A DNA stretch of 29,575 bases, taken from a virus. The notes under the pieces were generated by a model that had not been told where the DNA came from, did no database searches, and saw only the letters and a program-made list of their open reading frames with translations. The stretch is from the IMG/VR virus record IMGVR_UViG_3300013093_005294, positions 1 to 29,575 of that record. The stretch is one strand, 5' to 3'. The number at the start of each line of letters is the position of its first letter. Position 1 is the first letter of the stretch. Positions 5,811-25,869 of this stretch are shown here, piece after piece. The translations under genes were made by a program, and so were the position numbers.

Positions 5811-6614
5811 TCAGCCCCCTTGCAACGTGCCCGGATAGGCCGGACCCATGCGTCCATCGAACGCCGTGCCGCCGCCCTGCGGCCGTGACGCGGCCCGCGC
5901 CATGTGGTCGGCGATCCAACGGCCCATCCGGGCGCCATCGAGATACACATCGCCTCCCGTCGGCCCCTGGTCCCTCTCGACACTCCCCTGCGGCGCCGCC
6001 GAGGGCATCTGCCCGGCCGGCACCGGCGCCAGCGACGGCAGCGTCGTGACAGGCGCGGCGGACTCCGCGCGGCTCGCGGCGGGACGTTCAAGCGTCGCCC
6101 AGGCCGCACGCATCGGCGCGGCGTCGCGGGCGTTGTCCGGCGCAGGGTCGTGCGCCGCAACCGACGGAGCCGCCGGCGCGTTGTCCCGCGCCCGCACGGC
6201 CGATGGCATCAGCCGCACCACCAGCGGCGCGGCCTGCGCCCGCGGCGTCGCCGGCGCATCCACCTCGGCCGAGGACACCGGCGACGCCGGCGCGATCACC
6301 TGCGCGGCCGGTTCGTGCACAACGGCATCCCGCTCGGGCAGGGCCTGCGCCGCCGCGCGCGTGGGCAAGAACGTCGGCCCATGCTCGGAACTTGGCGACT
6401 CGCGGTCCGGCGCGGAGAGTGCATCCACCGCCCGCGCGGCCTCCGCCGCCGGCCGGCCGACCACCGCACCCAGCGCGCGGAACCGCTCGAGCCCAGCCAT
6501 GCCCGCCGCCGTCACCCGCTCCAGCGCCGCCATCTCCGCGCCCACCGCCGCGATCCCCGCCGAGACGCCATCCTCCAGCGCGAGGCGAACGCCCACCGTA
6601 TAGGCCTCCTCCAT
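5811..6614 (-). CDS. Short tape-measure-like tail protein
   Basis: The only candidate for a tail tape measure, but just 267 aa. Residues 1-55 (YTVGVRLALEDGVSAGIAAV, then AEMAALERVTAAGMAGLERFRAL) are an amphipathic helical start like those of tape-measure proteins. Residues ~65-205 are low-complexity, rich in Ala and Pro, and the C-terminal ~50 residues carry a conserved-looking block (GGDVYLDGARMGRWIADHMA, FDGRMGPAYPGTLQGG). Tape measures in comparable contractile phages are usually 500-900 aa. ATG 6614 overlaps the previous stop in TGATG; GTG 6617 is an alternative start. It may be a true short tape measure, a decayed one, or a different protein with the tape measure lost. Confidence 0.6.
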   Translation of the reverse strand: MEEAYTVGVRLALEDGVSAGIAAVGAEMAALERVTAAGMAGLERFRALGAVVGRPAAEAARAVDALSAPDRESPSSEHGPTFLPTRAAAQALPERDAVVHEPAAQVIAPASPVSSAEVDAPATPRAQAAPLVVRLMPSAVRARDNAPAAPSVAAHDPAPDNARDAAPMRAAWATLERPAASRAESAAPVTTLPSLAPVPAGQMPSAAPQGSVERDQGPTGGDVYLDGARMGRWIADHMARAASRPQGGGTAFDGRMGPAYPGTLQGG

Positions 6615-6916
6615 CACCGCCCCTCCACGGCATCGCCGACCGCGGCCGCAATCGCCGCGCTCTCCGCCGCGACCACCGGCCCAACCACCGGCCGCGGCGC
6701 GCCGCGCGCCGAGCCGAACTCCCGCGCCGCCAGCCCGCGTCCGGACACGCCGAGCACGGCACCCTCATCGCCGGCCAACACATCCACCCGCAGCGTCGGA
6801 TCGCTCGTGCGCAGCGCCTCGGCCAGCCGCTCGGCCTGGCCATGCAGCGCCGCCAGCGCCGCCGCCCGCGGATCGGCGAGCCGCCGGGCGAACCAGCATC
6901 CCCGGTTTGCCATCAT
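6614..6916 (-). CDS. Small phage tail/neck protein, unknown
   Basis: A 100-aa product between the chaperone frameshift region and the tape-measure candidate. ATG 6916 overlaps the -1 frame stop in an ATGA; a second ATG at 6913 has a better distance (7 bases) from GGGAGG. The sequence begins MMANRGCWFARRLADPRAAA and contains helical ALHGQAERLAEALRTSD, then AREFGSARGAPRP. The EFG...PRP element recalls the EFGT...P.RPF pattern near the C-terminus of HK97 gp10-type tail-completion proteins, a weak resemblance. No firm function. Confidence 0.6.
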   Translation of the reverse strand: MMANRGCWFARRLADPRAAALAALHGQAERLAEALRTSDPTLRVDVLAGDEGAVLGVSGRGLAAREFGSARGAPRPVVGPVVAAESAAIAAAVGDAVEGR

Positions 6917-7421
6917 CCCGCCTCCCGCCAGCGTAGTTGCGAAAAATCGAACTCCCGCCCGTCGAGCGTCCCGAGCGCGACCACAAAGGCCAGTCGCTCC
7001 TCCGCCCCCAGGCTGAACGCCACGTCGAATGGCACCCCGTTCCGGCACAGATACAGACAATCCACCAGATCGGGATGCCCACTCAGTTTTTTGCGATGTC
7101 CACGTCCACGTGCGTCCGGCCTGGATCGAGCGCCGCCGCCACCGCCGCGATGCCCTCATCGCCGAGCAGCTGCACCAGCGCCTCGATCTGCGCCTCCGTC
7201 GCCGGCGTCGGCACCGGCACCGCGTCGATCGCCACCACCGAGCATGCCAGCAGCGCCATCCCCAGCCAGGGCTGGTTCTGCGCCAGGCTCGGTCCGGCCG
7301 CCTTGAACAGCCGGAGCTTGTCGAGCGCCGTCAAACGACGCAGTTCCAGCCTGCGTCCCTTGCCATCCACCACCTCGCGCGCGGCCTCTGCCGCCGCGAT
7401 CAGCCGCGCCGCCGGCCCCAT
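6913..7421 (-). CDS. Tail assembly chaperone frameshift product (TAC-T), predicted -1 fusion
   Basis: Predicted read-through form of the tail assembly chaperone. In the zero frame, codons GCA AAA AAC TGA create the slippery heptamer A AAA AAC (7092-7086) directly before the stop. A -1 slip there continues through 57 codons (LSGHPDLVDCLYLCR..., ERLAFVVALG, GREFDFSQLRWREAG) to a TGA at 6915-6913. The total is 169 aa. Six bases after the heptamer, GGCATCCC (7079-7072) can pair with GGGGTGCC (7038-7031) to form an 8-bp stem with one G.U pair. The G/GT (lambda) and E/E' (P2) pairs use the same arrangement at the same genomic position. There is no ATG in the -1 frame segment, so it cannot easily be expressed otherwise. 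Confidence 0.75.
7083..7421 (-). CDS. Tail assembly chaperone (zero-frame form)
   Basis: A 112-aa protein directly after the tail tube gene (3-base gap), where tail assembly chaperones lie. It is helical: MGPAARLIAAAEAAREVVDG, LRRLTALDKLRLFKAAGP, PATEAQIEALVQLLGDEGIA, and ends DVDIAKN. The line RRLTALDKLRLFKA is similar to the start of many chaperones of this class, which coat the tape measure before the tube polymerises. The sequence immediately before the stop is a slippery heptamer, giving a second, longer product (separate entry). Confidence 0.78.
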   Translation of the reverse strand: MGPAARLIAAAEAAREVVDGKGRRLELRRLTALDKLRLFKAAGPSLAQNQPWLGMALLACSVVAIDAVPVPTPATEAQIEALVQLLGDEGIAAVAAALDPGRTHVDVDIAKN

Positions 7422-7423
7422 CG

Positions 7424-7852
7424 TCAGATGCGCCGACGGCCGGAGGCGAAGAAGTCGAGCTTCTGCCGCACGCTCTGGTCGCCGCGCCAGCTGCCCGCCT
7501 GGGTCAGCTTGAACACCACGCCGTCATACTGATAGGTCGAGGTTGATCCATCCGCTTCAGCAACATACTGGTAGAGCGTCCCCGTCCCCAGCTGCCGCCC
7601 GGCGTAGAACGCCGCTTCCACCCGCGCGATGAAATCATCCACCGCCGCCGAGCCGCGCTCGAGCTCGAAACTGCCGTCCCAGCCCTTCGGCAGCTCGGCC
7701 GCCAGCTGCGAGCCGTCGATGCGGTCCACCCGCACCGGCTGCGTCAGCTGCCGGCTCTCGAACCCCGTCACATGCGCCAGATCGATCCGCCCATAAGGCC
7801 CCATGACCACCAGCTGGCAGTCCCGCCCGACCGAAAATACGTTGTTGACCAC
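7424..7852 (-). CDS. Phage tail tube protein
   Basis: A 142-aa protein that forms the inner tube of the contractile tail. It follows the sheath gene with a 39-base gap and starts at GTG 7852, preceded by GGGAG at 8 bases. The beta-rich sequence (FSVGRDCQLVVMGPYGRIDL, VTGFESRQLTQPVRVDRIDG, DGSFELERGSAAVDDFI, TYQYDGVVFKLTQAG, SVRQKLDFFASGRRR) fits tube proteins of Mu/P2-like tails and related tailocins. Length is within the usual 110-170 aa range. Position between sheath and chaperone makes the call firm. Confidence 0.88.
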   Translation of the reverse strand: MVNNVFSVGRDCQLVVMGPYGRIDLAHVTGFESRQLTQPVRVDRIDGSQLAAELPKGWDGSFELERGSAAVDDFIARVEAAFYAGRQLGTGTLYQYVAEADGSTSTYQYDGVVFKLTQAGSWRGDQSVRQKLDFFASGRRRI

Positions 7853-7891: not shown

Positions 7892-9463
7892 CTAGGCCGC
7901 CAGCCCGCCCGGCGTCCCCGGCAGAGTCTGCCGCTGCACCTGCACGGTCTGGCCGCCTTCCATGTTGACGATGAACTTCTCGTTGATCGCCTGGTATTGC
8001 ACCTGCGCGTCCGACTGGACGTAGCCGAGCCCCGTCCGCGACAGCGGATTGTTCGAACCATCGCAGATCACGCTGAACGGCAGCGACCCGTCGCGGCTCC
8101 CGAGCAGCCCCTGCGAGAGCATGTTCTGCAGGAACGACAGCTGCGTCGCGCGGATGCGCTGAAACAGCTGCGCGTTGATCACCTGGCCGACATATTGCCC
8201 CATCCCCGCTGCAAGCGTTGCACCGATGTAGTTCGTCAGCCGCGTATAGTTGTCGCCATTCGTGGCCGCGTTGGACGAGGAGTTGTGCCCCCCGCGCACG
8301 CCCCAGAAGGCGCCGCCCGGCTGCGGATTGGCGATCACGTCGATCCCCGCCCCGAGCAGCACCGCGAGCTCCGCCGAGGAGTAGGTCGAGGCCTGCGCGC
8401 TGCCCGGCGCGCCCGACTTCTGCGTGCCCACCACGCCATACAGCGGCTTGTTCAGGCTCGACTGCTCCGGCGAGAGATTGGCCAGCCGGCCCGCGACAAA
8501 TCCCTGCGGGCTCACCAGCCGCAGCGCCTGGTTGACCGGATCGTTCCACCACACCCAGTCGCCGAACATCAGCTTGGCGGAATAGGAATCGAGGCCCGCC
8601 GTCGCCTTCGCCGACACCGCGTTGGTGACCGTATCGCCGGCCGGCCCGGTCAGGATCATGTAGATCCCCTCCGACAGCCCGAAGCCCGCCTGCGTCGTCC
8701 ACTGGCTCGCGTCGTCGGCGTCCGCCAGCACGCCGATCGTGCAGCCCTGCCCACGCAGCGCATACATGCCTCGCCGCGGCGCCGTGTCGCTGCCGACCAG
8801 CGTCGTGGTGGTCACGCCGCCGGCCCCGTCATTGCCGGGCGCGCCGAGGTTGAACCCCCAGGTGAACGCCACCGGCGCGCTGCTCGTCGTGCCGGCATTG
8901 GCCACCACGATCTGGCTCGGCCCGCGCTGCGGCCCCTGCCCGGTGTTGATCGCGCTCGCCACGCCCTGCCAGAAAGCCGAGCCGGTACCTGCGAGATTGT
9001 CGAACACCTCGGGCGCGAAGCCCGGCAGGCTCACGGTGAATTTCCAGGTGCCCGCCTTCGCCCCGCTCGCCATCGAAATAACGATCTGGTTGCCCAGCGT
9101 CCCCGTATAGAGCGCCGTCACCAGGAAGCTCGTGTTCGGCACCACGAACGCCGCCGCCGTGTCCGACCCGTCGCTGACGCGCACGCAGCGGAAGCTCTGC
9201 GCCCCCTGCTGCACCGCGCTGGCCACCTGCGTGCCCATGTCGTACTTCCGCGGCATCACCGGCCCGAAGCCGCGCGCATAGTCGCTCATCGTGGAAACGA
9301 TCACCGGCTGGCCCACCGGCCCCCAGCTCGCCGAGCCCACCACGCCGACGACATTCGTGGGCACCCCGTTCAGCACGAGGTTCTGCGGCGGCACGATCTG
9401 CACATACAGATCCGGCACCACCAGCGCCGTCGTATTGATCGATCCCTGTTGCACAATCGGCAT
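7892..9463 (-). CDS. Phage tail sheath protein
   Basis: A 523-aa contractile sheath subunit. The N-terminal region carries VPDLYVQIVPPQNLVLNG, followed by GVVGSASWGPVGQPV and DYARGFG, a hallmark of sheath proteins. The variable middle domain contains TGTLGNQIVISMASG. The C-terminal conserved domain contains ELAVLLGAGIDVI, FWGVRGGHNSSSN and RLTNYIGATLAAG, with terminal strands that link neighbouring subunits in known sheaths. Length is in the normal range (400-550). ATG at 9463 follows a GGGGGG stretch in the end of the 46-aa gene. It identifies the particle as a myovirus-type tail. Confidence 0.95.
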   Translation of the reverse strand: MPIVQQGSINTTALVVPDLYVQIVPPQNLVLNGVPTNVVGVVGSASWGPVGQPVIVSTMSDYARGFGPVMPRKYDMGTQVASAVQQGAQSFRCVRVSDGSDTAAAFVVPNTSFLVTALYTGTLGNQIVISMASGAKAGTWKFTVSLPGFAPEVFDNLAGTGSAFWQGVASAINTGQGPQRGPSQIVVANAGTTSSAPVAFTWGFNLGAPGNDGAGGVTTTTLVGSDTAPRRGMYALRGQGCTIGVLADADDASQWTTQAGFGLSEGIYMILTGPAGDTVTNAVSAKATAGLDSYSAKLMFGDWVWWNDPVNQALRLVSPQGFVAGRLANLSPEQSSLNKPLYGVVGTQKSGAPGSAQASTYSSAELAVLLGAGIDVIANPQPGGAFWGVRGGHNSSSNAATNGDNYTRLTNYIGATLAAGMGQYVGQVINAQLFQRIRATQLSFLQNMLSQGLLGSRDGSLPFSVICDGSNNPLSRTGLGYVQSDAQVQYQAINEKFIVNMEGGQTVQVQRQTLPGTPGGLAA

Positions 9464-16562: not shown

Positions 16563-17034
16563 AGGTGTTTACCTACCCGAAACCGGGGCAGGTGGGCAAG
16601 GTTTTTTTTCAATCGTGCGTATTTTTTCCCAAATCGCGCGTCCGTGAGGCCCCCGATCTTGAAAACTGCAACAACCCCGTTGCCGAACCCGCGCGGTCCG
16701 GCGGACCCTCCGCCCGATTTCACGCCCTTGTCGCATTCGGAAATACTCCGTGATTTCAGTCGATTCCGCCAACAACTGAAAGCAACATCTTCGCGCGCTC
16801 CATAATCCCGACACAATCTGCCCCAGAACAGCCACAACAGGACACCGATTTCGGGGTTGATTCCCCCCCCTCGTATTGGCTCAAATCCGCTCGTCTGATC
16901 CGGGCTATTCCCCCTCGCCCCGGCTTCTCCGGACGAGATTCGGTCCCGGCCCCCGCCTACTTACGGGTCGGATCCGGACGATTGACCGCTCTGGGCCGCC
17001 TACCTGCCCGGACGAAATATGGATGGAGTTCGCA
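16563..17034. other. Divergent intergenic region between terminase and RlpA-like gene
   Basis: A 472-base gap that must hold promoters for the late operon (minus) and the RlpA-like gene (plus). It is less GC-rich than its surroundings, with two A/T runs (around 16600-16632). A 92-codon minus-strand frame (16837-16559) ends in an ATGA overlap with the terminase start but has atypical codon use and no recognisable domain. No small terminase is recognisable. Confidence 0.5.
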
Positions 17035-17544
17035 ATGTTCACTCGTGCCAGACATGCTCTTACTGGCATGGCCTTCGCCGCGCTGCTCGCCAGCCCGGCC
17101 TACGCCGAGCCTGCCAATAACCCCCCGCTCGCCGCCGCGCCGGCGGCAGCCGCCGCCAAGCCCGTCCGCGCCACCCGCACGGCCGCCCCGCAGCGCGCCC
17201 AGACCGCCGCCGAGCCCGCCGCCCCCATCCGCTCCGACAGCGACCAGGCGGTCGTCTGGCGCCAGACCGGCCTTGCCTCCTGGTATGGCGGCAACCGCTG
17301 GCAGGGCAAGGCCACCGCCTCCGGCATCCGCTACGACCAGAACAAGCTCACCGCCGCCCACGCCACCCTCCCCATCGGCACCAAGGTCCGCGTCACCCTC
17401 GAGGGCTCCGACCGCTCGGTCATCGTCCTCATCAACGATCGCCCCGGCACCCGCCGCCGCATCATCGACCTCAGCCGCCAGGCCGCCGCCGAGCTCGGCA
17501 TCGTCTCCCAGGGCCTCGCGGTCGTCACCCTCACGGCTCTCTAA
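17035..17544 (+). CDS. RlpA-like septal ring lytic transglycosylase family protein
   Basis: A 169-aa secreted protein. ATG 17035 has GGAG at 6 bases; the frame is open upstream but without support. Signal peptide at 1-24 (MFTRARHALTGMAFAALLAS, cleaved after AYA). A low-complexity Ala/Pro linker (25-75) precedes the double-psi beta-barrel domain: GLASWYGGNRWQGKATASG, LTAAHATLPIGTKVRV, VIVLINDRPGT, RIIDLSRQAAAELGI. No SPOR domain. The family cleaves denuded glycan strands at the septum. The conserved Glu after ASG (SGE.YD) is Ile98 here, while the conserved His109 and Asp135 are kept, so catalysis is doubtful. Appears to be a host gene. Confidence 0.85.
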   Translation: MFTRARHALTGMAFAALLASPAYAEPANNPPLAAAPAAAAAKPVRATRTAAPQRAQTAAEPAAPIRSDSDQAVVWRQTGLASWYGGNRWQGKATASGIRYDQNKLTAAHATLPIGTKVRVTLEGSDRSVIVLINDRPGTRRRIIDLSRQAAAELGIVSQGLAVVTLTAL

Positions 17545-17595: not shown

Positions 17596-17772
17596 TTTCT
17601 CCAGGCGGTATGACCGGCCTGCAGGTGCTAATTCCGTCCTAAGCGCCGCAGGCAACAAGCCCTGGCGACCACTCACATGTTCGTGCGGTCGCAACGGCTG
17701 ACGGGCGTCGCCACGCGTCGCACCACGATCCCGCTGCTGGGCGCGAAGCCCCCTCCACACCAAGAAAGTGAA

Positions 17773-17815
17773 AGGGATCCAAGGGCGAAGCCCTTGGCCC
17801 GCGGAGCGCCTTCCT
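17773..17815. repeat. Dispersed palindrome, copy 2 (REP-like), inverted
   Basis: Palindrome ccaaggg-cgaag-cccttgg (17779-17797) followed by cccgcggagcgcc, the reverse complement layout of copy 1. It lies just upstream of the methyltransferase gene. The ~180 bases between the two copies hold no supported gene. Confidence 0.6.
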
Positions 17816-17845
17816 TCCTTCCTTCCCGTCTGCTACCTCACGGGC

Positions 17846-18805
17846 ATGAATATCGACGGCTACCAACTCATGGCCGACGCGGTCACGAAGTTCTTCAACA
17901 CCGTCCGCGTCTCCGGCTGGTTCCATCACCCCGACGACCGCCTGGTCAGCGTCGCCGTCGCCGGCGCCCCCGTCATCGGCTGCCTGTCCGAAACCGGGCA
18001 ACCGCATGGCGGCGTCCTCGCCCTCGGCCCCGACAAGGGGTTCACCATCCAGTTCCTTCGCGCCGAGGAACCGCTCAACGATGCGACCGCGCTCGTCTTC
18101 ACCACCGCGCGCGGCTGGTCCGCCACCATCCCCCTGCTCGACCTCGCCGCCGACCGCATCGCCCTCTATCCCGGCACCGCCCTGGTCCACCGCTTCCGCG
18201 ACGCCCTGCCCGCCAATGCCAGGCTGCTCGACATCGGCGGCCGCTCCCGCTCGCAGCTCGACCGCAGCCAGGATTTCCCCGGCGCCGACGTTACCGTCCT
18301 TGACATCCTCCCCGGCGCCAACGTCGACGTCGTCGCCGACGCCCATGCCATGGCCGCCGCCCTCCCCCCCGAAAGCTTCGACGCCGTCTTCTCCGTCTCC
18401 GTTTTCGAACACCTGATGATGCCCTGGGCCGTGGTGCCGCAGATGAACCGCATCATGAAGCCCGGCGCCATCGCCCTGATTTCCTCGCACCAGACCATCG
18501 GGATGCACGACATGCCCTGGGATTTCTGGCGCTTCTCCGATACCGCCTGGGACGCCCTGTTCAACCGCCACACCGGCTTCGAGATCATCGACCGCATGGT
18601 CGAATCCGAGCAGTTCGTCCTCCCCTTCGTCTACCGCCCGATCAAGGCCTGGGCCGAGCGCGCCGCCGGCTACGAAGGCTCCGCCGTCCTCCTGCGCAAA
18701 ACCGGCCCCTGCGCGATGGCCTGGCCGCTGACCCCCGCGGACCTCACCAGCACCATGTATCCCGCCGGCACCGAAGACCCCTACGCCCGGAAATCCGCCA
18801 CATGA
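17846..18805 (+). CDS. SAM-dependent class I methyltransferase
   Basis: A 319-aa protein; start MNIDGYQLMADAVTKFFNTV at ATG 17846, because the upstream in-frame segment is palindromic repeat. An N-terminal domain (1-120) of unknown function precedes a Rossmann methyltransferase: motif I ARLLDIGGRSRSQ (126-138), VTVLDILPGANVDVVADAH (binding-loop region) and FDAVFSVSVFEHLMMPW (178-194), then IMKPGAIALISSH and HDMPWDFWRFSDTAWDALF. This type often modifies glycans or secondary metabolites; the substrate is unknown. Its stop overlaps the next start by ATGA, so it is translationally coupled with the Hint-like protein. Confidence 0.85.
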   Translation: MNIDGYQLMADAVTKFFNTVRVSGWFHHPDDRLVSVAVAGAPVIGCLSETGQPHGGVLALGPDKGFTIQFLRAEEPLNDATALVFTTARGWSATIPLLDLAADRIALYPGTALVHRFRDALPANARLLDIGGRSRSQLDRSQDFPGADVTVLDILPGANVDVVADAHAMAAALPPESFDAVFSVSVFEHLMMPWAVVPQMNRIMKPGAIALISSHQTIGMHDMPWDFWRFSDTAWDALFNRHTGFEIIDRMVESEQFVLPFVYRPIKAWAERAAGYEGSAVLLRKTGPCAMAWPLTPADLTSTMYPAGTEDPYARKSAT

Positions 18806-19908
18806 GCGGCCGCAAGCCTCCGCGCCCCGCGAAGTCGGCCGCCCCCCTCTTCCCCACCGAGGGCGCCTTCCTGGCCGGAACCCTGCTCACCACCAGCGGC
18901 CCCGGCGGCGTTCAGGCGCAGGTTGCCGCCGAGGCCCTCTCGCCCGGTGAGACACTCCTCGCCCTCAGCGGCGCCACCGAGGAGGCCCGCCCCGTCCTCG
19001 CCGTCCACCGCCTCACCCTCGACCCCGCGGACCACCCGAACCCCGCCCTCGTCACCCCGATCCGCATCCGCGCCGACGCCCTCGCCCCCGGCATGCCCGC
19101 GCGTGATCTTCTCCTCCCCCCCGAAGCCCTGCTTCGCTTCCGCGACTCCGGCCCCGCCGACGCCCCCATCGGCCCCGGCGAGGACCCCGGCTACCTCGTC
19201 CCCGCCGCCGCCCTGCTCAACGGCACCTCGATCACCCGCGATTCCAGCCCCGGGCCGCACACCTGGTTCATCCCTGATCTCGGCGCGCATACGGTTCTCC
19301 TCGCCGAATCCAGCGCCGTCGGCAGCGCCCGCTTCCCCGCCCCCGATCGCCGCGCCACCCCGCGCCCACCGCTCGTGCCCCCCTGCGCGCCGATCCGCCC
19401 GACCGGCACCGCGCTCAACGCCCTGCGCACCCGCCTCGCCGCCCGCGCCAGCGACTCCGGCATCGCCCCGCCCGCGCCCCAGCCGCCCCAGCCGCCCGAG
19501 CCGCCACCTCCGGTCACCGGCAAACCGGCCGGCGACGCCCCGCCCCTCCTCGTCATCGCCGCCGGCGCCCCCATCAACCCCAGCGGATCGCCGGCCCCCC
19601 TCACCTTTCTCTACACCCTCCCCGCGCGCACCGGCCCGATCCGCCTGCGCTCCCGCCCCCGCCGCGCCGCGGACCCCGCCGAGGCCCGCCGCTTCGGCGT
19701 CTGCATCAGCGGCGTCACCCTCGACAATACCCCCCTCGCCTTCGACTCCCCCCATTTCGGCCCCGGATTCCACCCCGTCGAAACCGATACCCTCACCTCC
19801 TGGCGCTGGACCAACGGCGACGCCTGGCTCGTCCTGCCCTACAGCAGCGAGGTCCGGCAGCTCGTCATTTCCATCACCGACTGGCACAGCGCCCTCGCGA
19901 CGGCCTGA
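18802..19908 (+). CDS. Degenerate Hint-domain protein (catalytic Cys and His lost)
   Basis: A 368-aa protein whose first ~165 residues align with the Hint domain of the large protein at 27391 in this same window. Matches include GTLLTT (GTRITT), PIRIRADALAPGMPARDLLL (PIRIRAHAFGRNLPVRDLIL), LLNGTSI (YLTNGATI) and AHTVLLAE (THDIILAE). The nucleophile Cys aligns with Ala22 and the SPDHA histidine with Ala109, so autocleavage should be impossible. Residues ~200-260 are a Pro-rich linker. The C-terminal ~100 residues (IRLRSRPRR, RRFGVCISGVTLDNTP, WRWTNGDAWLVLP) form a second domain also found at the end of the larger Hint protein. Role unknown; coupling suggests it acts with the methyltransferase. 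Confidence 0.75.
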   Translation: MSGRKPPRPAKSAAPLFPTEGAFLAGTLLTTSGPGGVQAQVAAEALSPGETLLALSGATEEARPVLAVHRLTLDPADHPNPALVTPIRIRADALAPGMPARDLLLPPEALLRFRDSGPADAPIGPGEDPGYLVPAAALLNGTSITRDSSPGPHTWFIPDLGAHTVLLAESSAVGSARFPAPDRRATPRPPLVPPCAPIRPTGTALNALRTRLAARASDSGIAPPAPQPPQPPEPPPPVTGKPAGDAPPLLVIAAGAPINPSGSPAPLTFLYTLPARTGPIRLRSRPRRAADPAEARRFGVCISGVTLDNTPLAFDSPHFGPGFHPVETDTLTSWRWTNGDAWLVLPYSSEVRQLVISITDWHSALATA

Positions 19909-20097: not shown

Positions 20098-20529
20098 ATG
20101 CAGTTTGCTCCTCCCAGTTTTTCGACCGGGCTTTTGGGCAATTCGTGGCCGCCGCGGATCATCGTGCTCGACGATGACCGCCTGGTGCTCGAAATCCTGT
20201 GCGAGGCCCTGTCGGTCACGGGCGCGATCGTCACGCCGGTCACCACGGCCGACGCGGCGCTGGATGCCATGGGCGAGCCGCCGCGGCCGAGCATGTTGAT
20301 CACCGACATCGATCTTGGTCCCGGCCCCGACGGTTTCGCCGTCGCCGAGCATGCCCGCATTCGCTGGCCGAACATGCCGATCTTTCTGATCAGCGGGCAC
20401 TACAACGGCAATGCCAAGCTCGAGGCCTCGTTGCGGGCGACCTTCTTTCCCAAGCCGCTGCGCCTTCGCCCCTTCATTGCCGCCGTCAGCGCCGCCCTTC
20501 CCGCCGAGCCCGCCCGCGCGTCGAGCTAG
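20098..20529 (+). CDS. Single-domain response regulator (CheY-like receiver)
   Basis: A 143-aa receiver domain without an output domain. The acidic pocket is DDD at 25-27, the phospho-acceptor is probably Asp70 in MLITDIDLG, the switch Ser is in FLISGHY (99) and the conserved Lys is in PKPL (119). It therefore should be phosphorylatable. No histidine kinase is adjacent, so its partner lies elsewhere. An ATG start at 20098 has no clear ribosome-binding site, and there is a small hairpin in front. Could act in a phosphorelay or chemotaxis-like system; the partner cannot be told from the sequence. Confidence 0.88.
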   Translation: MQFAPPSFSTGLLGNSWPPRIIVLDDDRLVLEILCEALSVTGAIVTPVTTADAALDAMGEPPRPSMLITDIDLGPGPDGFAVAEHARIRWPNMPIFLISGHYNGNAKLEASLRATFFPKPLRLRPFIAAVSAALPAEPARASS

Positions 20530-25132: not shown

Positions 25133-25869
25133 CCGAAACCACCCTCCGCCCCATCGCCGACCTCATCGCGCCCATCGCCGCGCGCACCGGCGCGCCCATT
25201 GGCGCCCCCAATGGCGCACCTAATGGCGCACCTAATGGCGCGGCGAATGGCGCACCGAATGGCGCAGCGAATGGCGCGGAGTCGCGCCGACATGCGCCAT
25301 ACCCCCTGGCAAAGCCAGGGGGGTATGGCGCTTTCGGCGCCGCAAACCGCCCCGCCCATGGCGCGCCCAATGGCGCAACCAAAGGCGCATCCGCGCCCAA
25401 CAGCGCCAATGGCGCAATTGGCGCAATTGGCGCATTCGGCGCAAACGGCGCACCCGACCGCGAAACCATCCTCCACCGCCTCGAGGAAGCCGGCCGAACC
25501 CTCCTCGCCCTCCCCCCCACCGGCTGGACCACCAAACTCCGCACCTCCAACATCGACGTCGTCCGCTCCGCCGCCGAAGCCTACGGCTACAACACCAGCG
25601 CCCGCCTCCGCCCCGCCATGCCCAACACCCAAACCATCACCCGCATGGACGAAGCCCTCACCTGGATCACCCTCATCCCCCGCGACCGCTACGTCCTCCG
25701 ACGCATCGTCGGCGCCCGCGCCCTCGTCTCCCCCACCACCGAACGACACCTCTACCCCTGGCGCCGCCTCGCCACCCTCCTCGGCGCCGACCACAAAGCC
25801 ATCCAACGCTGGCACACCCAAGGCATCCAAATCATCCACGACGAACTCAAACGCAAAGCCACGAGCTAA
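25129..25869 (+). CDS. Repeat-rich protein with C-terminal HTH-like domain (DUF6362-like)
   Basis: A 246-aa protein, third in the operon (ATGA overlap). Residues 20-108 are a low-complexity linker built from GAPN/GAAN repeats encoded by 12-bp tandem units. Residues 110-160 are helical. Residues 170-245 (MDEALTWITLIPRDRYVLRR, IVGARALVSPTTE, YPWRRLATLLGADHKAIQRW, HTQGIQIIHDEL) resemble DUF6362, an HTH-like domain often found in phage genomes near terminase genes. A role in DNA recognition is likely but unproven. A palindrome lies inside the linker coding sequence (25294-25331). Confidence 0.7.
   Translation: MTETTLRPIADLIAPIAARTGAPIGAPNGAPNGAPNGAANGAPNGAANGAESRRHAPYPLAKPGGYGAFGAANRPAHGAPNGATKGASAPNSANGAIGAIGAFGANGAPDRETILHRLEEAGRTLLALPPTGWTTKLRTSNIDVVRSAAEAYGYNTSARLRPAMPNTQTITRMDEALTWITLIPRDRYVLRRIVGARALVSPTTERHLYPWRRLATLLGADHKAIQRWHTQGIQIIHDELKRKATS
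25199..25275 (+). repeat. 12-bp tandem repeats coding for GAPN/GAAN
   Basis: About six imperfect copies of a 12-mer like ggcgcacctaat. Codons vary (cctaat, gcgaat, ccgaat), so selection seems to keep the protein repeat while the DNA diverges. Further looser GGCGCA repeats continue to 25450. Confidence 0.8.
25294..25331. repeat. In-frame palindrome inside the repeat-rich gene
   Basis: gcgccataccccctggc, loop aaa, gccaggggggtatggcgc: 17-18 bp arms with one bulged base. It encodes HAPYPLAKPGGYGAF within the low-complexity linker. Its ctggcaaagccag core resembles the intergenic ccaggggcaaagcccctgg hairpin at 13202, so it could be a coding insertion of a palindromic element. Confidence 0.6.

Follow-up and report, generated by a model that had tools for sequence, protein, structure and literature searches.

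Gene arrangement of the window

The window, meaning the whole stretch of DNA analysed, is the 29,575-bp IMG/VR virus record IMGVR_UViG_3300013093_005294. The element described here is located on its minus strand, within a group of tail genes. A G-like tail assembly chaperone ORF of 112 residues (7083-7421, minus strand; hereafter G) was identified by ORF translation and is followed by a T-like extension in the -1 frame (6913-7086, minus strand; hereafter T), recognised from the sequence and its relatives. The sheath gene (7892-9463) was assigned by a profile match to phrog_23 (E 2.9e-46). Baseplate proteins, also identified by profile matches, flank G and T on the side away from the sheath, and the capsid, portal and terminase genes lie further upstream.

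The upstream neighbour of G (7424-7852, minus strand) follows the sheath and matches phrog_12993, a family of unknown function; it was assigned as the probable tail tube from position alone. The same applies to the putative tape measure, a 268 aa Ala/Pro-rich protein (5811-6617, minus strand), which is preceded in the window by an extra ORF of 99 aa. In relatives, a median of 1349 nt separates T from the DNA-circularisation-like gene, room for ∼300-450 aa as a rule. Since the number of tape-measure residues usually scales with tail length, proteins of such sizes would predict a contractile tail that is unusually short.

Several further features of the window were recorded. An RlpA-like lytic transglycosylase gene (16876-17544, plus strand; DPBB_1, E 3.5e-21) lies divergently beside the terminase and is possibly a lysis gene; it was matched in 34 fetched loci, again beside the terminase, and forms part of the phage neighbourhood. 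Genes for a Hint_2-domain protein (18802-19908, plus strand) and a methyltransferase (17768-18805, plus strand) are located between the structural and early modules, and relatives of both were found near the terminase of locus L228. A response regulator receiver domain protein (20098-20529, plus strand) had only a single weak match in the loci fetched. A 12-base tandem repeat of 7.4 copies (25189-25279, plus strand) falls within a DUF6362-domain ORF and, in one of its frames, encodes a repeat of the G-A-P-N type.

Slippery heptamer and reading frames

The 112 aa ORF ends GCA AAA AAC TGA, corresponding to residues D I A K N followed by the stop. The heptamer A AAA AAC (7092-7086, minus strand) fits the X XXY YYZ register needed for -1 slippage, and the zero-frame UGA (7083-7085, minus strand) follows it directly. 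Reading after slippage would continue CTG AGT GGG CAT CCC and run to GGA TGA, adding 57 residues (7086-6916, minus strand; LSGHPDLVDCLYLCRNGVPFDVAFSLGAEERLAFVVALGTLDGREFDFSQLRWREAG) before the stop at 6915-6913, which overlaps the ATG of the next ORF at 6916. The fusion of the zero frame and the -1 frame is 169 aa in length. Upstream of the heptamer the -1 frame of the window is open for 21 codons, in which no ATG, GTG or TTG was found. The preliminary description had reported an in-register heptamer at the end of the 112 aa gene, and a -1 frame open for 57 more codons, lacking a start of its own and ending at the ATG of the next gene; both were seen in the sequence as described. It had also treated the window as a prophage, a status that the record used here, a virus record from IMG/VR, does not itself establish; relatives do sit in bacterial genome bins.

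Conservation of the heptamer and both frames in relatives

Relatives were fetched at the protein level with the 169 aa fusion as the query, and not by RNA pattern, which gave 11 loci from bacterial genome bins and a further 80 from IMG/VR. The bin titles of the 11 bacterial loci read Acetobacteraceae, Rhodospirillales, Rhodopila or just Proteobacteria. Two truncated loci were excluded, leaving 89 intact loci with the window included. All 89 carry an in-register heptamer (G GGA AAC in 87 and A AAA AAC in two) with T in the -1 frame. A second sample was fetched with the large terminase, and thus picked without reference to the frameshift element; each of its 29 loci bearing T contains GGGAAAC or AAAAAAC. 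Within this sample, loci L275 and L281 gave overlapping upstream matches (CCCGGGAAAC and GGGGGGAAAC) and carry GGGAAAC 3 nt further on. The earlier proposal had named homologues lacking the heptamer, or with stops in the -1 frame, as grounds for rejection; the intact loci of both samples carry the heptamer together with T in the -1 frame.

In 71/89 loci the zero-frame stop comes immediately after the heptamer; the other 18 have it 18 nt further on. No ATG, GTG or TTG precedes the heptamer in the -1 frame in 75/89. T is 56-82% identical among relatives in the -1 frame, with residues L1, H4, P5, L11, L13 and G17 invariant; it is conserved as protein from residue 1, and outside the stem described below its residues are retained despite changes at third positions. 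The split into G and T frames is present in 89 of the 90 loci with both halves. The exception is L077 (positions 1210-1220), which reads GGGAAC and not GGGAAAC, a one-A deletion that fuses the G and T frames. This one-frame fusion may represent a sequencing error, a mutation or a natural frameshift-free variant, and is taken here as an error or mutation. An upstream Shine-Dalgarno-like stimulator was also sought in the distinct (non-redundant) sequences; no conserved match was obtained and 43/64 had no match of any kind.

Downstream hairpin

A stem begins 6 nt 3′ of the heptamer. Its 5′ arm is GGCATCCCG (7071-7079, minus strand) and its 3′ arm is CGGGGTGCC (7031-7039, minus strand), which holds a Gly GGG and a Val GTG codon. 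The spacing of six bases given in the preliminary description was reproduced; its stem length of 8 bp was corrected to 9 bp, with 7079-7071 paired to 7039-7031, one U-G pair in the window and a loop of 31 nt. Folding of the 66-nt segment gave −32.3 kcal/mol against a mean of −20.7 kcal/mol for dinucleotide shuffles (z = −4.0). An inner helix was predicted in the window and in the isolated phage phiKX1, and only two further pairs were supported across the alignment.

All nine pairs are formed in 62 of the 64 distinct sequences. A covariation shuffle control was uninformative, so a synonymous-codon null was used instead, in which the codons of T were randomised from its first residue by the family's own synonymous usage. 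Over 2000 randomisations this null gave a mean of 0.74 complete stems and a maximum of 6. The Gly codon of the 3′ arm is GGG in 64/64 sequences (elsewhere in T, GGG makes up 21% of Gly codons) and the Val codon is GTG in 64/64 (elsewhere, 35% of Val codons); for the Pro codon that follows GGG-GTG all four codons are used among relatives. The low synonymous variation anticipated around the signal is therefore present, with the downstream stem under extreme synonymous constraint. Nearly all substitutions in the stem preserve pairing as G-U. No compensatory double changes were found in the stem, the stem being too invariant for a covariation test, and the case for pairing is for this reason made by synonymous constraint and G-U tolerance rather than by covariation.

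An Rfam search at the element returned no family. IMG/VR was scanned with the exact pattern AAACTGA-N3-GGCACCCC-N15..45-GGGGTGCC, which was matched in at least 120 stretches. Among the matches listed there were 178 elements, all with a 59-base span and all in G/T homologues with G identities of ∼35-79%; no hairpin-heptamer element outside G/T homologues was present among the matches listed.

Identity of the G protein

G matched the profile of phrog_20383, a family of unknown function; 35/35 members did so, the window with E 1.7e-20. The match to the tail assembly chaperone family phrog_508 was weak, found in 19/35 members with a best E of 0.0026. Searches of the 35 members against Pfam, its tail assembly chaperone models included, gave no convincing match and none above the cut-off. 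An AlphaFold2 model of G was built from 48 relatives (pLDDT 85.5). Its top PDB match was the HK97 tail assembly chaperone (2ob9; E 0.14, probability 0.80), a moderate resemblance with a TM of 0.47 over 109 columns at 18% identity. Searches against BFVD returned several tail assembly chaperones, including that of Bacillus phage Gemini (E 3.3e-3) and Mu FS-gp41 (P0DJY4; E 0.062, TM 0.53). A fold search with a model of the 57 aa T part gave no meaningful match. The predicted fold of G and the gene order together support its identity as a probable tail assembly chaperone.

Interpretation and alternative explanations

The arrangement is almost certainly a programmed -1 ribosomal frameshift, by which a single mRNA would give both a G and a GT tail assembly chaperone. 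The sequence, the frame relation, the conservation of heptamer and stem, the coding constraint on the -1 frame, the fold and the gene order form the basis of this reading, and the proposal of the preliminary description is upheld by the homologues, the stem constraint, the fold and the gene order. That ribosomes slip in vivo, how often they do so and what G and T bind are inferred.

Separate expression of the -1 frame as a small gene, by internal initiation or coupled re-initiation at the GTG of the GVP motif or another downstream GTG, was considered. Phage operons commonly show re-initiation beside a stop codon, the GTG at T residue 18 is invariant (64/64), and GGAAC (as CGGAAC or AGGAAC) precedes it in most sequences. 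However, the -1 frame shows conservation over T residues 1-17, which precede this GTG, and this stretch must therefore be translated in that frame; the invariant GTG also belongs to the 3′ arm of the stem, no start lies upstream of the heptamer in the -1 frame of the window, and separate initiation would leave the invariant in-register heptamer unexplained. Such a separate gene is accordingly very improbable. Transcriptional slippage, in which mRNAs one base longer or shorter would give the fusion, is less credible still: the window does contain a run of six A, which is short for such slippage, but the heptamer in 87/89 relatives is G GGA AAC, which contains three A only, so that RNA polymerase slippage cannot be the mechanism of the family, and the fixed 6-nt spacing is explained by a stem acting on the ribosome.

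Least probable, to a negligible degree, is a chance or decaying frame overlap, or one gene broken in two by a sequencing error. The GGGAAC of L077 does join G and T in one frame; against this explanation, the split is found in 89/90 loci, whose sources include many metagenomes, several genome bins and phiKX1, an isolated phage, and both frames are under protein-level constraint. The homologues thus refute this explanation. A somewhat less remote, though still improbable, alternative concerns the hairpin only: the invariant GGCACCCCG/CGGGGTGCC could be kept for another DNA or RNA function, such as a protein-binding site or mRNA stability, and not as a frameshift stimulator. The sequence itself, beyond its pairing, is nearly invariant and lacks compensatory changes, as such a function would allow. 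This alternative is opposed by the constant distance of 6 nt from the heptamer, which is usual for stimulators, by stem changes that on one side produce G-U pairs in nearly every case, and by the lack of any Rfam family at the element.

Proposed mechanism

Under the frameshift reading, most ribosomes would decode A AAA AAC, terminate at the UGA and release the 112 aa G-like protein. The hairpin, positioned at the mRNA entry, would stall a minority of ribosomes while AAA and AAC occupy the decoding sites. Both tRNAs would then re-pair one base back on AAA AAA, and translation of 57 more codons would produce the 169 aa GT-like fusion. By analogy with lambda, G may coat the tape-measure protein and T may bring in the tube protein; G and GT would both have departed by the time the contractile tail is complete.

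Since a UGA follows the heptamer, some of the slippage may be in competition with release factor 2 (RF2). In a bacterial construct with the HIV site, a stop after the slippery site made slippage RF2-sensitive (PMC4373837). It is conceivable, if rather unlikely, that an RF2 stop after an Asn-type heptamer sets slippage against termination, so that RF2 activity tunes the G:GT ratio and with it tail building. Where the next T codon begins with A, 53/55 distinct sequences retain the adjacent stop, compared with 66% expected from leucine codon usage; this retention is no more than suggestive of the RF2 reading, the sequences being related to one another. The adjacent stop is lacking in 18/89 relatives. 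Two published observations count against efficient slippage at this site: in E. coli, A AAA AAC is reported to be far less shifty than A AAA AAG (PMC5009743), and in test systems frameshifting at the HIV site fell when the heptamer was followed by a UGA (PMC4373837).

Significance

A predicted function is assigned here to the unannotated phage family phrog_20383 and to a small -1-frame domain of the kind missed by gene callers. As judged from the sequences, the signal is highly conserved in this previously unannotated family, in apparent phages of acetic-acid-bacterium relatives. The relatives provide a uniform natural set of more than 100 frameshift signals with a fixed 6-nt spacing, a 31-nt loop and two heptamer types; with the stop either adjacent or 18 nt away, the set is suited to testing the effects of UGA and hairpin on -1 efficiency in bacteria.

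Comparison with known systems

The only annotated phage records that matched were phiKX1 and phiKX2 (LC644975 and LC644976), isolated phages of Komagataeibacter xylinus. They share a homologous sheath, tube-position protein, G and T with the window at 34-49% protein identity, and in phiKX1 the tube-position homologue is located directly upstream of G. The layout and spacing of heptamer, UGA and stem in phiKX1 are the same (AAAAAAC TGA GCA GGCACCCCG ... CGGGGTGCC), still kept at a G identity of about 34-35%. The protein in the tape-measure position is 742 aa in phiKX1 compared with 268 aa in the window. In the phiKX1 record G and T are entered as two hypothetical proteins and the frameshift was missed; the T part (L094:8342-8521, BCZ76064.1) is annotated as a separate hypothetical gene from an internal ATG.

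The tail-chaperone frameshift is described as conserved in long-tailed phages where PMC5009743 cites Xu, Hendrix and Duda (2004). The lambda proteins occur at ∼30 G per GT, with the tape measure as the binding partner of G and the tube protein as that of T (PMC5009743). The window family resembles lambda gpG/gpGT (G GGA AAG) in having one start and two predicted products, predicted -1 slippage late in the first ORF, a T extension without its own start and a site before the putative tape-measure gene. It differs from lambda in lacking any detectable sequence relation, in its contractile tail, in a heptamer that ends AAC, in a zero-frame stop that usually abuts the heptamer and in a strong conserved 9-bp hairpin. 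HK97, whose chaperone gave the top PDB fold match of G, is a siphophage. Mu has a contractile tail, and its FS-gp41, from the gp41/FS-gp41 pair, matched the G model structurally; the gene order of the window is Mu-like, running sheath, putative tube, chaperone, putative tape measure, DNA-circularisation-like protein and baseplate. In contrast to Mu, the window gave no Pfam sequence match above the cut-off, contains the extra 99 aa ORF and has a much shorter protein in the tape-measure position.

Other systems with a zero-frame stop directly after the slippery site involve unrelated genes, and two of them operate on eukaryotic ribosomes. A -1 frameshift between the tube and tape-measure genes is classic and the device is already known (PMC5009743). 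Asn-type heptamers, a stop that abuts the heptamer in 71/89 loci and an almost invariant hairpin are modest variant features, and the element is a well-conserved further example of a known device and not a new one.
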